Assembly (NCBI RefSeq): GCF_004364325.1
Contig: NZ_SOCP01000002.1
Location: 558,001 to 622,000 of the forward strand
Direction of reading: 5' to 3'
Source of the DNA: Actinophytocola oryzae
Lineage (GTDB): Bacteria; Actinomycetota; Actinomycetes; Mycobacteriales; Pseudonocardiaceae
Length of the DNA stretch: 64,000 nucleotides
Of the stretch, positions 2,176 to 56,603 are shown one piece after another. The notes under the pieces were generated by a model, which had not been told where the DNA came from, searched no databases, and worked only from the letters and a program-made list of their open reading frames with translations. Made by a program: the position numbers and the translations under genes. Numbering within the stretch: position 1 is the first letter of the stretch; every line of letters starts with the position of its first letter.

Positions 2176-3426
2176 TCATCCTGCCGCCTCCACCCTGGCC
2201 TCGCGGCCGGCCCGTGCGACGACGCCGGCTTCCACCAGCGCGTCGATGCGTTCCTCGGCCAGCCCGAGCAGGCCGCCGAGCACCTCGTCGGTGTGCTCAC
2301 CCATCACCGGGGGCACCGTCGCGGGGCCCGGCCGCCACCGGTCGGACTCCACGGGCAGCTTGATCACGTCCAGGTCGGCCCCGTCGATCTTCTGCACGAT
2401 GCCGTTGTGCATGGCCTGCTCGGACACGATCGCGTCGTTCAGCTCGAGCACCGGGCTGTTGGGCACGTCCGCGAGCTCCAGCACGGCCAGCCACTCCTCC
2501 CGCGTCCGGCCGAGGAAGATCTGCTCCAGGGTGGACATCAGGACGTCGCGGTTGGCGAGCCGGTCCGCGTTGGACGTGAACCGGGGGTCGTCCTTCCACT
2601 CCGGACGCCCGACCGCGTCGCACAGCCGCCGCCAGAACCCGTTGGTGAACGCGCCGACCATCACGTACTGGCCGTCCGAGCACAGGAACGCCTGGTACGG
2701 CACGATCTGCGCGTGCCCGCGACCCAGGCGCGGGATGGTCTTGCCGAGCGTGGCCACCGACGGGATGTAGTTGGCCATCATCGCCATCGACGCGTCGAGC
2801 ATGGCGATCTCGACGTGCTGGCCCTCGGGCTGCGCCTCCCGACTGTGCAGTGCGGCCAGGATGCCGGCGAGCGCGAACAGGCCGGTGGCGTAGTCGGAGA
2901 TCGGCGCGCCGATGCGCACCGGCCCGCCGCCGACCTCCCCGGTGATGCCCATCAGGCCGGACACCGACTGCATGATGATGTCGTTGGCGGGCCGGTTGCG
3001 CCACGGCCCGCTCGACCCGAAAGCCGAGATCGAGCAGTAGACGAGCCCTTCCCGCACCTTGCGCAGGTCCTCGTAACCCAGGCCGTGGCGGTCGAGCACG
3101 CCGGGCCGGAAGTTCTGCACGACGACGTCGCACGTGCGGGCCAGGTCCTTCGCGAGCACCCGACCGTCCTCCGTGGACAGGTCGAGCAGCACGGACTTCT
3201 TGTTGCGGTTGAGCGCGAGGTAGTAGTCGGACTCGATGGGGCCGAGCATCGGTTCGCCCATGTACCGCGCGCCGTCGCCCCGTCCCGGCTTCTCGACCTT
3301 GATCACCTCGGCGCCGAGGTCGGCCATGAACATCGTCGCGAAGGGGCCGGCCGCCGCGTGCGAGAAGTCGAGTACCCGCAGGCCCGTCAGCGGTAGGGCG
3401 GCGGTCTGCGCGGATGTAGCTGCCAC
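2176..3426 (-). CDS. CaiB/BaiF-family CoA-transferase
   Basis: Full-length family III CoA-transferase (416 residues). It shows LRVLDFSHAAAGPF near residues 16-29, LGAEVIKVEKPG at 38-49, the NFRPGVLDRHGLGYEDL block at 105-121, and the likely catalytic Asp178 in ISDYATG. The start is a GTG at 3426 with a GAGGG about 11 bases upstream. The gene follows the UGSC selenoprotein by 35 bp and precedes a second, diverged CoA-transferase, so a heteromeric enzyme or two successive CoA transfers are both possible. By family it would activate a carboxylic acid for further breakdown; the actual acid is not indicated. Confidence 0.92.
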   Translation of the reverse strand: MAATSAQTAALPLTGLRVLDFSHAAAGPFATMFMADLGAEVIKVEKPGRGDGARYMGEPMLGPIESDYYLALNRNKKSVLLDLSTEDGRVLAKDLARTCDVVVQNFRPGVLDRHGLGYEDLRKVREGLVYCSISAFGSSGPWRNRPANDIIMQSVSGLMGITGEVGGGPVRIGAPISDYATGLFALAGILAALHSREAQPEGQHVEIAMLDASMAMMANYIPSVATLGKTIPRLGRGHAQIVPYQAFLCSDGQYVMVGAFTNGFWRRLCDAVGRPEWKDDPRFTSNADRLANRDVLMSTLEQIFLGRTREEWLAVLELADVPNSPVLELNDAIVSEQAMHNGIVQKIDGADLDVIKLPVESDRWRPGPATVPPVMGEHTDEVLGGLLGLAEERIDALVEAGVVARAGREARVEAAG

Positions 3427-3461: not shown

Positions 3462-4058
3462 TCAGCGCGAGTAGGACGAACGCGGTGTCGCCGACTCGTG
3501 GTACGCCTCCGCCACCTCCTGAGCGGAGTGGGTCAGTGCGAAGACGACCTCGTCGAAGGCCTCGTCGGTGACGGCACGCATCTCCGCGTCGGAGATCTGT
3601 CCGATGGGGTGCGGCAGGACCTGGATCGCCAGGTCACCGAGGCCGAGAGCGGTCACCTCCATCCTGGCCTTGAACCCGAACGGCTCGGTGATGACCGCGA
3701 GCGCCGGGATGCCGAGCTTCTCGAGCGTGACTCCGTCGTGGACACTCCACGAGCTGCAGGAGCCTCAATCGCCGAACGCGGTGACGACGAGATCGCACGT
3801 GCGCATCTCGTCGAGCACCTCGGGCTCCATCGGCTTGCTGGCCGTCGGCTTCGCGGCGTGGACGAACTCGAGTCCCCTGTACTGGGTCGAGAGCAGTTCC
3901 TCGAGGCGGTGAAGGTAGATGTCCGCGTTCACCTTCGCGTTCCAGAGCAGGCCGATGCGCTTGCCGTCGAGTGACTCCGGTCGCCTGGAGAGCCCGCCCT
4001 CGCCGCGTGGGGCGGCGTCCGGGTCGGGCGTGGGTCGGAAGACACGGAACGTGGTCAC
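3462..4058 (-). CDS. UGSC-family selenoprotein; in-frame TGA at 3765-3767 read as Sec
   Basis: One 199-codon reading frame interrupted only by TGA at 3767-3765. Upstream of the TGA it reads CDLVVTAFGD and directly after it GSCSSWSVHDGVTLE, so the TGA occupies the first position of the family's U-G-S-C motif (Sec at about residue 98). The downstream frame aligns with the Cys-type paralogue at 56064-56603, where the same site reads GDCAGCCSCSVQDAIALE. The real terminator is TGA at 3464-3462. I prefer the GTG at 4058, preceded by GGGGAGGT with an 8-base spacer, over the ATG at 4079. A SECIS-like hairpin follows the TGA, and selA lies 8.4 kb away. Ordinary annotation would split this gene into two fragments. 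The chemistry of UGSC proteins is uncharacterised; a redox role through Sec and Cys is inference. Confidence 0.9.
3736..3767 (-). promoter_or_regulatory. Bacterial SECIS-like hairpin after the Sec codon
   Basis: Counting from the base after TGA, bases 13-19 (TCGTGGA, 3752-3746) pair perfectly with bases 23-29 (TCCACGA, 3742-3736), closing a 3-base loop GTG (3745-3743). An outer CTCC/GGAG helix can extend it across an internal bulge. The loop begins at base 20 after the UGA and starts with G. Both features match the known rules for bacterial SECIS elements: a loop about 16-37 bases downstream and a guanine in its first two positions. This is the expected SelB-binding element. Confidence 0.8.
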
Positions 4059-12472: not shown

Positions 12473-13786
12473 TCAGCAGGCTGTGACCGCATCGACTATG
12501 CGGGTGTCGGCGGTCGGCGGGACCGCGAGCAGGTCCACTAGGCACGCGCCGTTCGTCACTCTCGTCATCACCGGGTGGGGTGCGTGGCGCAGGCGTTCGG
12601 CGTAGGACTCGGGGAGCCGGACCGCGGCGCTCGCGATCGGCACTCCCGGTGCACCCCCGCCACCCACCGTGGCCTCGCTGTCGACCGCCTGTGCCTCGAC
12701 GCCCTGTGCACGCAGTGTCGCGGCGAGCGCCTCGGCGCGAGCACGCAGCTCCGCCCGGCCCGTCGCCAGTGCACGGGCGGTCGGGGTGGGCGGCACACGC
12801 AGGGTCGCCTCCAGCGCGGCGATCGTGAGCTTGCCGACCCGCAGCGCACGGGCCAGCGGGTGCCGCCGCAGCCGGTGCACGAGGTCCGCCCGCCCCGCGA
12901 TGATGCCGCACTGCGGGCCCCCCAACAGCTTGTCGCCGCTCGCGATGACGAGGTCCGCGCCCGCGCGCAGCGTGCCGGCCGCGTCCGGTTCGTCCGGTAG
13001 GAGCGGGTGTGGGGTGAGCAGGCCGGAGCCGATGTCAGCCACCACCGGCGCCTGCAGCGTCGCCAGCTCCTCGATCGGCACGTCGGCCGTGAAGCCCGTG
13101 ACCACGAAGTTCGACGGGTGCACCTTCAGCACGAAACCCGTCTCCGGCCCGACTGCCGCCGTGTAGTCCGCGAGCGCCGTCCGGTTGGTGGTGCCGACCT
13201 CACGCAGCGTGGCGCCGGTGCTCGTCAGCAGGTCCGGCAGGCGGAACCCGTCACCGATCTCCACCAGCTCGCCCCGGCTGATGACGATCTCCCTGCCCAT
13301 CGCCAACGCGGTCGCGGCCAGGACCAGCGCCGCGGCGCCGTTGTTCACGACGTGCACCGCCTCGGCGTCCGGCACCGCCGCGGCCAGTGCCTCGACCATC
13401 CCCAGGCCTCGTCCCGTGCGCCTGCCCGACGTCAGGTCCAGCTCGACATCCGTGGGCCCCGCCGCCGCCACCACCGCCTCGACCGCCGCAGCCGACAGCG
13501 GCGCTCGGCCCAGGTTCGTGTGCAGGAGGACACCCGTGGCGTTGACTACCGGGTTCAGCGACGACCCGCGGGCCGGCAGTGCGGCTACGGCCGTGTCGGC
13601 CACCGCTTCCGGGGCGATCTCGCCTGCCCGCGCCCGCTGCTGGGCCGCCGCTACCGCCGCCTTGACCGCGGGCCGTCCCACCCGCGTGACCGCCTCGACG
13701 AGCCTGGGGTCGGCCAGCACCTCGTCGGTCCTGGGCACCAGCCGCCTGCGATCCACACTGGACGAACGACCGGACGCACTCACCAC
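12473..13786 (-). CDS. selA: L-seryl-tRNA(Sec) selenium transferase (selenocysteine synthase)
   Basis: PLP enzyme that converts seryl-tRNA(Sec) to selenocysteyl-tRNA(Sec) using selenophosphate. At 437 residues it is slightly short for SelA. Motifs: NPVVNATGVLLHTNLGRAPL (about residues 78-97), ELVEIGDGFRLPDLLTSTGA, EVGTTNRT, VLKVHPSNF, and the PLP lysine in SGDKLLGGPQCGII (about 280-293). The start is GTG (13786 or 13783) without a strong Shine-Dalgarno. No selB, selD or selC is in the window. Its presence 8 kb from the UGSC TGA gene is the main independent support that this organism makes selenoproteins. Confidence 0.95.
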   Translation of the reverse strand: MVSASGRSSSVDRRRLVPRTDEVLADPRLVEAVTRVGRPAVKAAVAAAQQRARAGEIAPEAVADTAVAALPARGSSLNPVVNATGVLLHTNLGRAPLSAAAVEAVVAAAGPTDVELDLTSGRRTGRGLGMVEALAAAVPDAEAVHVVNNGAAALVLAATALAMGREIVISRGELVEIGDGFRLPDLLTSTGATLREVGTTNRTALADYTAAVGPETGFVLKVHPSNFVVTGFTADVPIEELATLQAPVVADIGSGLLTPHPLLPDEPDAAGTLRAGADLVIASGDKLLGGPQCGIIAGRADLVHRLRRHPLARALRVGKLTIAALEATLRVPPTPTARALATGRAELRARAEALAATLRAQGVEAQAVDSEATVGGGGAPGVPIASAAVRLPESYAERLRHAPHPVMTRVTNGACLVDLLAVPPTADTRIVDAVTAC

Positions 13787-54488: not shown

Positions 54489-55000
54489 CCCCACCCATGA
54501 CGCGACCGAAGGGTCTCAACCACGTCGCGTACGTCACCCTGAACACCGGTGAGACCAAGCGCTTCTACACCGAGGTCCTCGGCATGAAGCTCGTCGGCCA
54601 CGCGCAGGAGGACACCGTCGGCAGCACCGGCGAGTCGATGAAGTTCCTGCACACCTTCTTCGAGATGGACGACGGCAGCTGCATCGCCTTCTTCGAGATC
54701 GAGGGCCTCGACAAGGACCACCACGACACCCCGCTGCCGCGCTGGGCCGCGCACTTCGCCATGTCGGTGGAGAGCATGGAGGAGCTGGAGGCCGCCCACA
54801 AGCGGCTGCTCGACGAGGGTATCGAGGTGCGTGGCGTCATCGACCACGAGGGCACCTGGAACTCCATCTACTTCTTCGACCCCAACGGCGTGCGGCTCGA
54901 GCTGACCTACCAGAGCCGGGAGCTGGACGAGAACGACGCGAAGTCGGCCAGGGCCGCGGTCGACGAATGGGTGAAGGAGCACCCGAAGACGCGCCGATGA
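54485..55000 (+). CDS. VOC-family (glyoxalase/extradiol dioxygenase fold) protein
   Basis: 171 residues. LNHVAYVTLNTGETKRFYTEVLGMKLVG (about residues 11-38) gives the first metal His and the VOC fold. The second half is WAAHFAMSVESMEELEAAHKRLLDEGIEV then SIYFFDPNGVRLELTY, with the terminal Glu. Both metal positions look intact. It could be an epimerase, lyase or dioxygenase for the pathway. Coupled to both neighbours by ATGA overlaps. Confidence 0.9.
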   Translation: MTPPMTRPKGLNHVAYVTLNTGETKRFYTEVLGMKLVGHAQEDTVGSTGESMKFLHTFFEMDDGSCIAFFEIEGLDKDHHDTPLPRWAAHFAMSVESMEELEAAHKRLLDEGIEVRGVIDHEGTWNSIYFFDPNGVRLELTYQSRELDENDAKSARAAVDEWVKEHPKTRR

Positions 55001-56067
55001 CGGCCACCCTGTCCTCCGCCGCCGTCCCGGTCGCCGACGAGCAGGCCGTGCAGGACCTGTTCACCCAGCGCGGCTGGGGCGACGGCCTGCCGGTCGTGCC
55101 ACCAACGCCCGACCGGGTGGCCGCGTTCGTCGAGGCGTCCGGGATCGCGCCGGACACCGTGATCGGCACGCTGCCCGAGCAGGGCCGCGAGCTGACGTGC
55201 GAGAAGATCGCGGTCAACGCCGTCGCGGCGGGCTGTCGCGAGGAGTACATGTCGGTGCTGGTGGCGATCGTGCGTGCGCTCACCAACCCGTCGTTCTGCC
55301 TGCACAGCACCACGATCAGCGGCGCGACCACGCCACTGGTGATCGTCAGCGGGTCGGTGGTCAACCAGATCGCGCTGAACTCCGGCTACAGCGTGTTCGG
55401 CCCAGGACACCAGGCCAACGCCACGATCGGCCGCGCGGTCCGGCTCATCCTGCAGAACCTGTGCGGCGGGATCCCCGGCGTGATCGACAAGTCCACGTTC
55501 GGCCACCCCGGCAAGTACAGCTACTGCATCGGCGAGAACGCGGCGGCGAACCCGTGGCCGCCGATCCACGCCGACCGAGGCGTGGCCGCCGACGACAGCG
55601 CGGTGACGGTGTTCGCGGGCGAGGCGCCGATCTACGCACGCAACGACTGGTCGAGCGAACCCGGCCCGATCCTCGCCACCATCGCCGACGCGATGCTGCC
55701 GTCGCACTACGCGGGCGGCTGTTTCGTGGTCGCGATCGGGCCGCTGCACGCGGCGATCCTGTCGGGGGCGGGCTACGACCGCGCTGCCGTCCAGGCCGAG
55801 CTCTTCCAGCGGGCCCGGCGCAGCGTCGCGAGCATGAAGGTCGCGGGCCGGATGCCCGGCGAGGTCGAGCCGGGCGACGACGACGAGTTCCGGACGGTCG
55901 TGAACCGCCCGGAGGACATCCTGATCACCGTCGCGGGCGGCGACCTGTACGGCTACTCGGCGGTGATCCCGTACTGGATCGGCGGCAGCGACTCGCAGCC
56001 GGTCACCGAGGCGCTCACCCCGGCGGAGGCGGAGCGCTGCCAGATCCCCTCGGAGGAGGAGAAATGA
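54997..56067 (+). CDS. UGSC-associated conserved protein (full length)
   Basis: 356 residues; ATG overlaps the VOC stop by ATGA, and its stop overlaps the next ATG. It is the complete paralogue of the partial gene at 1-720. Shared pattern: RGWGDGLPVVPPTPDRVAAF (residues 22-41), EKIAVNAVAAGCREEY, TTPLVIVSG, NATIGRAVRLILQNLCGG, and YSYCIGENAAANPW. The part missing at the window edge in the paralogue includes YAGGCFVVAIGPLHAAILSGAGYDR and the DDEFRTVVNRPEDILITVAGGD segment. No cofactor motif is certain. Strict coupling to a UGSC gene in both islands suggests a two-component enzyme. Confidence 0.8.
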   Translation: MTATLSSAAVPVADEQAVQDLFTQRGWGDGLPVVPPTPDRVAAFVEASGIAPDTVIGTLPEQGRELTCEKIAVNAVAAGCREEYMSVLVAIVRALTNPSFCLHSTTISGATTPLVIVSGSVVNQIALNSGYSVFGPGHQANATIGRAVRLILQNLCGGIPGVIDKSTFGHPGKYSYCIGENAAANPWPPIHADRGVAADDSAVTVFAGEAPIYARNDWSSEPGPILATIADAMLPSHYAGGCFVVAIGPLHAAILSGAGYDRAAVQAELFQRARRSVASMKVAGRMPGEVEPGDDDEFRTVVNRPEDILITVAGGDLYGYSAVIPYWIGGSDSQPVTEALTPAEAERCQIPSEEEK

Positions 56068-56603
56068 CCGAACTACTGGTTCTCGATCCCACCAACGCGG
56101 TCAGCGAGAGCACGGCGGAGCTGGTCGCCCGGCCCGCGTCGTTCGAGGGCCTCGTGGTCGGCTACCTCGACAACACCAAACCCAACAGCGACCGCTTCCT
56201 CGACATCCTCACCTCGACGCTCGCGACCGAGGGTGTGCGGGAGTCGGTGCGGGCCCGCAAGAACTACGTCGGGCGCCTCGCCGACCCCGAGATGCTCGAC
56301 GACCTCGCCGCCAGGTGCGACGTGGTGGTCACCGGCGTCGGCGACTGCGCGGGCTGCTGCTCGTGCAGCGTGCAGGACGCGATCGCCCTGGAACGCAGGG
56401 GAGTCCCGACGTTCATGGTGTGCACGTCCGAACTGCTGACGACGGCCACGATCGCCGCGTCGACCGTGGGCGTGCCGGACTACCCGTTCGTCGTGATCGA
56501 CCACCCGTTCGGCGCGCTCGGCATACCGGAGCTGACCGAGCGGGCGGGTGAGGCGCACCGGCAGATCCTCGCGCAGCGGATGGATGTCCGGCGCGCAGGC
56601 TGA
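56064..56603 (+). CDS. UGSC-family protein, Cys form
   Basis: 179 residues; ATGA-coupled to its partner. RCDVVVTGVGDCAGCCSCSV (about residues 81-100) matches the selenoprotein at 3462-4058, with Cys in place of Sec (CAGC for UGSC), so the redox pair C-x-x-C is kept and a further C-S-C follows. The C-terminal half is FVVIDHPFGALGIPELTERAGEAHRQIL, like the paralogue. The family has no assigned reaction. A thiol/selenol redox or C-halogen/C-S chemistry role is speculation. Confidence 0.85.
   Translation: MTELLVLDPTNAVSESTAELVARPASFEGLVVGYLDNTKPNSDRFLDILTSTLATEGVRESVRARKNYVGRLADPEMLDDLAARCDVVVTGVGDCAGCCSCSVQDAIALERRGVPTFMVCTSELLTTATIAASTVGVPDYPFVVIDHPFGALGIPELTERAGEAHRQILAQRMDVRRAG

Follow-up and report, generated by a model that had tools for sequence, protein, structure and literature searches.

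A predicted UGSC-family selenoprotein of Actinophytocola oryzae, its partner protein and the selenoproteins GrdB and PrdB

Proteins of the UGSC family, with either selenocysteine (Sec) or cysteine at the first position of their motif, are already named and catalogued (NF041046 in NCBIfam, PF24696 in Pfam), and their function is uncharacterised. The Global Ocean Sampling (GOS) study, in the passages dealing with the family, called UGSC likely thioredoxin-like in fold and reported its fusion to a second domain (PMC2398784). For other actinomycetes, UGSC proteins encoded with Sec have been published in the relevant part of a later paper which, citing earlier work, also includes UGSC selenoproteins of Geodermatophilaceae accompanied by tRNA-Sec with the anticodon CUA (PMC5330540). 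Kinship with the selenoproteins of glycine and D-proline reductases is not named in these particular passages, nor is any partner family besides the fusion with 'Unknown_1'. Among those selenoproteins, GrdB is described in a section of PMC13188914 as the substrate-binding subunit responsible for ammonia release, and its homologue PrdB as carrying out reductive ring cleavage.

The gene at 3462-4058 and the machinery for selenocysteine

The window analysed here is a stretch of 64,000 nucleotides (C2:558001-622000) from the 10.7-Mb draft genome of Actinophytocola oryzae. On its minus strand, positions 3462-4058 hold a UGSC-family gene of 198 residues, running from a GTG start at 4058 to a TGA stop at 3462-3464. 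The stretch GGGGAGGT lies eight bases upstream of the GTG, and a sigma-70-like promoter match (TTGACT-17-TAGGAT; minus strand, 4128-4100) is found further upstream, this being a consensus match only, with one found against 0.1 expected by shuffling. The sole internal stop of the frame is the TGA at 3765-3767 (residue 98, the predicted Sec codon), in the context FGD-U-GSCSSWSVHDG, and the U/C-G-S-C motif is present as FGD-U98-G-S-C101. The initial annotation had described a frame broken only by a TGA at the U of UGSC; this observation holds when the minus strand is read, a strand which that annotation had not given, and translation of the plus strand in the same interval yields no meaningful product. 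With the TGA read as Cys or Sec, the joined translation scores 164.9 bits against PF24696 (cut-off 25) and 143.6 bits against NF041046 (cut-off 125, all 147 profile positions), in matches that span the TGA, and its suggested membership of the UGSC family is borne out. The protein-level match is beyond chance. With high probability the gene encodes a real selenoprotein, a further member of a known family and hence not new as a kind.

The conservation of the codon was followed in 249 genomes of the host's family, 43 of which matched PF24696, 39 above its cut-off. The 84 rows listed comprise, by our count, 50 with one in-frame stop and 34 without any; among the former the stop is TGA in 50 of 50 and occupies the U of UGSC in every one of them, including L114, in which the motif is UGAC. 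Twenty-two genomes contributed these 50 rows, G202 and G220 among them looking near-identical. The orthologue from the same genus (L072) keeps the TGA and shows about 61 synonymous differences from the gene studied here, with a dN/dS of 0.14 before the TGA (97 codons) and of 0.22 after it (100 codons). The sequence 3' of the TGA is under purifying selection, and the possibility that relatives end at this TGA, with nothing conserved beyond it, has failed. A sequencing error at 3765-3767 is very unlikely, because L072 and four UGSC paralogues of the same genome keep a TGA at the same place. In the Cys forms, the codon aligned with this TGA is TGC (the paralogue at 56064-56603) or TGC/TGT (17 Cys loci). 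The proposal of a true selenoprotein has come through the tests that might have overturned it, and the selenoprotein reading is well supported, with Sec predicted at residue 98.

The genes that the initial annotation had suggested looking for, selB, selC and selD, are all present in the genome, together with selA. The tRNA-Sec gene selC lies at C2:517161-517252 (Rfam tRNA-Sec, 71.8 bits, cut-off 47) and is recognised by ARAGORN as tRNA-SeC with the anticodon tca; selB scores 281.2 bits (cut-off 242.25) and selD 395.2 bits (cut-off 125). These three genes sit together some 40 kb left of the window, and selA, encoding L-seryl-tRNA(Sec) selenium transferase, is located inside it, on the minus strand at 12473-13786 (TIGR00474, 417.8 bits, cut-off 267.9). 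A tRNA-Sec above cut-off was found in all 22 genomes with a TGA-containing UGSC gene (21 relatives and the genome itself) and in 38 of the 40 genomes scanned; it was missing in G191, the UGSC rows of which have no in-frame stop, and in G001, which has no UGSC row. The association is consistent and not very discriminating, since both selC and selB are common in the host's family anyway (selB in 203 of 249 genomes at 1e-60).

The SECIS-like hairpin downstream of the UGA

Downstream of the TGA, a SECIS-like hairpin (TCGTGGA-GTG-TCCACGA; minus strand, 3736-3752) can be drawn with seven base pairs and a GUG loop, or with six base pairs and an AGUGU loop. Of the bases following the TGA, the 13th opens the hairpin and the 20th opens its three-nucleotide loop, as first described. 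According to the part of PMC13188914 that deals with bacterial SECIS (bSECIS) elements, including a figure legend, such elements have a loop of 3-9 nt, a stem of 4-16 bp, a G in the first two loop positions, a spacing of 16-37 nt and an MFE of at most -7.5. The present hairpin agrees with four bSECIS constraints from that part of the paper, its values being a GUG loop, 7 bp, G in first place, 19 nt from TGA to loop and an MFE of -17 (45 nt). Taken alone, its folding is not exceptional (z = -0.55, with 50 of 200 shuffles as stable), and synonymous recoding that preserved the residues produced a stem of at least six pairs in 3801 of 20000 random draws.

The case for the hairpin is carried by comparative evidence, not by 3736-3752 alone. 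Two registers were considered, counted from the T of the TGA: bases 16-21 pairing with 27-32 (five-base loop) and bases 15-20 pairing with 27-32 (six-base loop). One or other register has four or more contiguous pairs in 120 of 120 Sec sequences, 50 from the family set and 70 from the cross-phylum set considered below, the latter giving no independent evidence on the hairpin because one of the two scan patterns sits in it. The first register is used by 108 of these sequences and the second by 12, and the loop is N-G-T in all of them. Such pairing was seen in none of 17 Cys genes, namely those among the 34 stop-free rows that had a locus sequence. Within the family set, at least five pairs in the same register are present in 50 of 50 TGA-bearing genes. 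In the 19 distinct sequences of this set, 96.5% of the hairpin cells pair, and the covariation score is 0.425, compared with 0.111 (sd 0.032) after shuffling and at most 0.078 after sliding. In three of the pairs both bases vary, a number attained by 45 of 500 shuffles; the remaining covariation measures are equalled by 0 to 8 of the 500. The encoded residues vary along with the hairpin, reading SSWSVHD in the gene under study, ATRSCRD in L067 and SAASLAD in L070.

A constant partner and variable neighbours

To a wider scan of named genomes we owe at least 79 distinct UGSC loci. Seventy-three were kept and six (L126, L127, L143, L160, L164 and L190) were dropped by record title, these being metagenome bins titled Bordetella parapertussis, titles which look doubtful; they are outside all counts given here. 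Among the matches listed, the 73 kept loci have TGA in 68 cases, TGC in three and TAG in two, and their record titles point to Chloroflexi/SAR202, Beta-, Alpha- and Deltaproteobacteria, Nitrospinota, Rokubacteria, Acidobacteriaceae, Entotheonella, actinomycetes and others. The two TAG loci belong to Geodermatophilus (L176:6217 and L187:6223) and have TAG at the Sec place of UGSC with a hairpin in the same position; both genomes possess a tRNA-Sec with the anticodon cta, labelled tRNA-Pyl by ARAGORN. A 2016 study on natural Sec recoding is reportedly the source behind this UAG case.

UGSC is accompanied by a protein of about 350 residues, hereafter called the partner, which belongs to no Pfam or NCBIfam family (46 members searched, best stray matches at E 0.011 or worse). 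Among the matches listed, 70 of the 73 loci, drawn from many phyla, have the partner either close to UGSC or fused to it; in 69 it is encoded on the same strand, no more than 1.5 kb from the Sec/Cys codon, and in 26 it is fused in frame with UGSC. The loci in which it is missing are L120, L136 and L154, the last two of which extend less than 0.5 kb beyond the Sec codon. Such constant pairing suggests a dedicated enzyme. One apparent fusion in reverse order was also observed, P0181 (300 aa), in which the C-terminal part of the partner precedes UGSC.

Besides the Cys form, five UGSC loci of the A. oryzae genome, all with an in-frame TGA (C2:561465, C2:520488, C2:536128, C2:526680 and C1:699413), match both the protein of 3462-4058 and NF041046. 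The sole Cys copy of the six (GDCAGC; plus strand, 56064-56603) is a real paralogue, as the initial annotation had it, with 34% identity to the protein of 3462-4058 over the aligned part. All six pass the PF24696 cut-off, and only the gene at 3462-4058 passes the 125-bit cut-off of NF041046. A seventh, weak copy (C2:544164, 33.7 bits) reads GDWGVS, with Trp and Ser replacing U and C, and is probably catalytically dead, judging from its sequence. This seventh domain is fused to the partner (L018:7654-9771, C2:543.7-545.8 kb), and a 705-residue stop-free frame resembling the fusion occurs in a genome of the same genus, at G132:C43:31671. Eight copies of the partner were found in the genome, a same-strand one near each of the seven UGSC copies, at a distance of up to 115 bases for six of them and of 2772 bases for the gene at 3462-4058. 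The eighth (L017, C2:530453-531394) has no UGSC domain detected beside it. The roughly 100 kb of C2:516-615 kb, which include window positions 1-56603, constitute a selenium-related island: they contain selA, selB, selC and selD together with four UGSC genes of the TGA type, the Cys form and the copy that is probably dead.

The genes next to the UGSC gene are likewise on the minus strand. After a gap of 35 nt, the UGSC gene is followed by a family III (CaiB/BaiF-type) CoA-transferase at 2176-3426 (Pfam CoA_transf_3, 409.8 bits), then by a second family III CoA-transferase at 720-2036 (280.7 bits), likely in the same operon, and finally by the partner gene, the first part of which occupies positions 1-720. 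The ATG of the latter at 720 overlaps the preceding stop, and its 361 codons extend beyond the window (profile match C2:557713-558693; no Pfam family). The four genes likely form one operon. The partner gene paired with the Cys paralogue lies on the plus strand at 54967-56067 and is likewise without a Pfam or NCBIfam family. Another family III CoA-transferase (247.4 bits) is found with an amidohydrolase in the cluster at C2:524-529 kb. Neighbours differ between UGSC loci, by eye including TctC-like receptors, luciferase-like oxidoreductases, CoA-transferases and acyl-CoA dehydrogenases, and therefore indicate no single substrate; such variety would be in keeping with a catabolic enzyme that has adapted to many substrates. 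The CoA-transferases and ABC transporters among the neighbours point towards organic acids.

Predicted fold, proposed function and comparison with known systems

The predicted model of the protein (pLDDT 92.3, pTM 0.87) consists of five beta-alpha units, with strands at residues 34-39, 64-69, 90-94, 119-124 and 144-148 and a helix after each. The beta-alpha-beta-alpha-beta-beta-alpha order of a thioredoxin fold is not present in the model. Comparison of UGSC with the GrdB/PrdB profile gives an hhalign probability of 93.8 and an E value of 1.8e-7 (single comparison) over 108 columns, with Sec on Sec, compared with at most 0.3 for 40 shuffled controls; the probability falls to 75.5 when only the nine full-length GrdB-like sequences are used. 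TIGR01917 is touched by 39 of 53 UGSC members at E up to 0.1, in matches far below its 602-bit cut-off, and PF07355 by none of the 53 at that threshold; the curated cut-offs for GrdB/PrdB (TIGR01917, TIGR04483 and PF07355) are not reached. From these alignments, the Sec region of UGSC is probably a distant, remote relative of that of GrdB/PrdB. As a separate observation, 27 GrdB/PrdB-like genes of actinobacterial genomes (within L199-L227) without exception carry TGA as the Sec codon, and their PF07355 match ends at that codon or no more than two codons away; the PF07355 model therefore seems to stop at the Sec codon. The partner shows a profile probability of 0.1% with eight GrdE-like sequences and, having no profile similarity to a GrdE-type subunit, does not, on this comparison with GrdE, recognisably form the known pyruvoyl arrangement.

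On this basis, we consider it reasonably likely that the UGA is read through with Sec and that UGSC is the selenol-bearing subunit of a two-part enzyme with its operon partner; among possible functions, such a GrdB/PrdB-like selenol enzyme is the best-supported. SelD, SelA, tRNA-Sec and SelB would very probably deliver Sec at the UGA, with the hairpin acting as its SECIS. In the predicted fold, strand 3 would lead into a helix that begins with Sec98, and Cys101, at +3, would be the resolving thiol. By analogy with GrdB and PrdB, and because of the kinship to these substrate-attacking selenoproteins, the selenolate might act on a small carboxylic substrate that UGSC holds jointly with the partner, attacking one of its carbon-heteroatom bonds; the ensuing selenenylsulphide with Cys101 would then be reduced by a thiol donor, a sequence of steps that we put forward tentatively. 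UGSC and the partner would share a joint active site, and the two CoA-transferases of the operon could conceivably activate an organic acid as its CoA thioester.

The Sec protein might instead be real and its likeness to GrdB/PrdB a mere shared pattern of strand, U/CxxC and helix, the pair performing other chemistry such as hydrolysis or transfer. This reading accommodates the unreached curated cut-offs, the common alpha/beta folds that make up the rows listed by Foldseek and VIA-align, and the partner's lack of profile relation to GrdE; the 108-column match, Sec on Sec and far above its shuffled controls, makes it rather unlikely. Still less probable is the 2008 guess for UGSC, a thioredoxin-like thiol/selenol oxidoreductase with general redox or antioxidant functions, which draws on the UxxC motif and on the likely Trx-like fold proposed in the GOS passages (PMC2398784). 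The strand and helix order of the model differs from that of thioredoxin and the constant single partner suggests a dedicated enzyme; no thioredoxin appears among the 50 + 50 rows listed by Foldseek and VIA-align, an absence that excludes nothing. That the TGA is a true stop, the gene being a pseudogene or encoding a short protein of 97 residues as the ordinary table 11 reading has it, is extremely improbable given the dN/dS downstream relative to the TGA-retaining L072, the exclusive use of TGA in the 50 stop-bearing rows listed, the covarying hairpin and the full sel gene set.

The surroundings of the gene are of more interest than the selenoprotein itself. Together with the fold prediction and the GrdB/PrdB kinship, the constant partner above all turns an 'unknown redox protein' into a concrete, testable two-protein hypothesis, and the seven paired copies, one of which no longer has either catalytic residue, allow Sec, Cys and probably inactive forms to be compared within a single genome. 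More speculatively, UGSC and the partner may be a two-part selenoenzyme not yet described, branching off far from the other selenoproteins of the glycine and D-proline reductase group. It would have left anaerobic amino-acid fermentation, replaced the pyruvoyl subunit by a new partner and spread among Chloroflexi (SAR202), Proteobacteria, Nitrospinota and actinomycetes, where it would serve in catabolism and would have been duplicated to deal with several substrates, seven copies being present in this genome.

Among known systems, GrdB (TIGR01917, PF07355) aligns with UGSC by profile, Sec on Sec, whereas UGSC is without its long N-terminal part, has the second residue, Cys, at +3 where eight of nine full-length GrdB-like sequences have Gly (their Cys being at +6), and is paired with a partner that, unlike the GrdB arrangement, is not GrdE-like by profile. 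PrdB (TIGR04483) and its actinobacterial look-alikes have, as UGSC does, a U/CxxC Sec site in the equivalent stretch followed by an E..GIPT-like segment, although the similarity is only remote and the UGSC hosts would, from their taxonomy, be oxygen-tolerant. The fusion of UGSC to Unknown_1 from the Global Ocean Sampling work resembles the locus at C2:525-527 kb in joining UGSC to a conserved domain. The UAG-coded UGSC selenoproteins of Geodermatophilaceae have the family and the hairpin position in common with the gene at 3462-4058, and use TAG with a tRNA-Sec of anticodon CUA whereas the latter uses TGA with UCA. With the UGSC family itself (NF041046/PF24696) the protein shares the motif, the occurrence of Sec and Cys forms and scores over both cut-offs; no difference sets it outside this family, to which it adds an actinomycete representative whose genome holds four more TGA copies.
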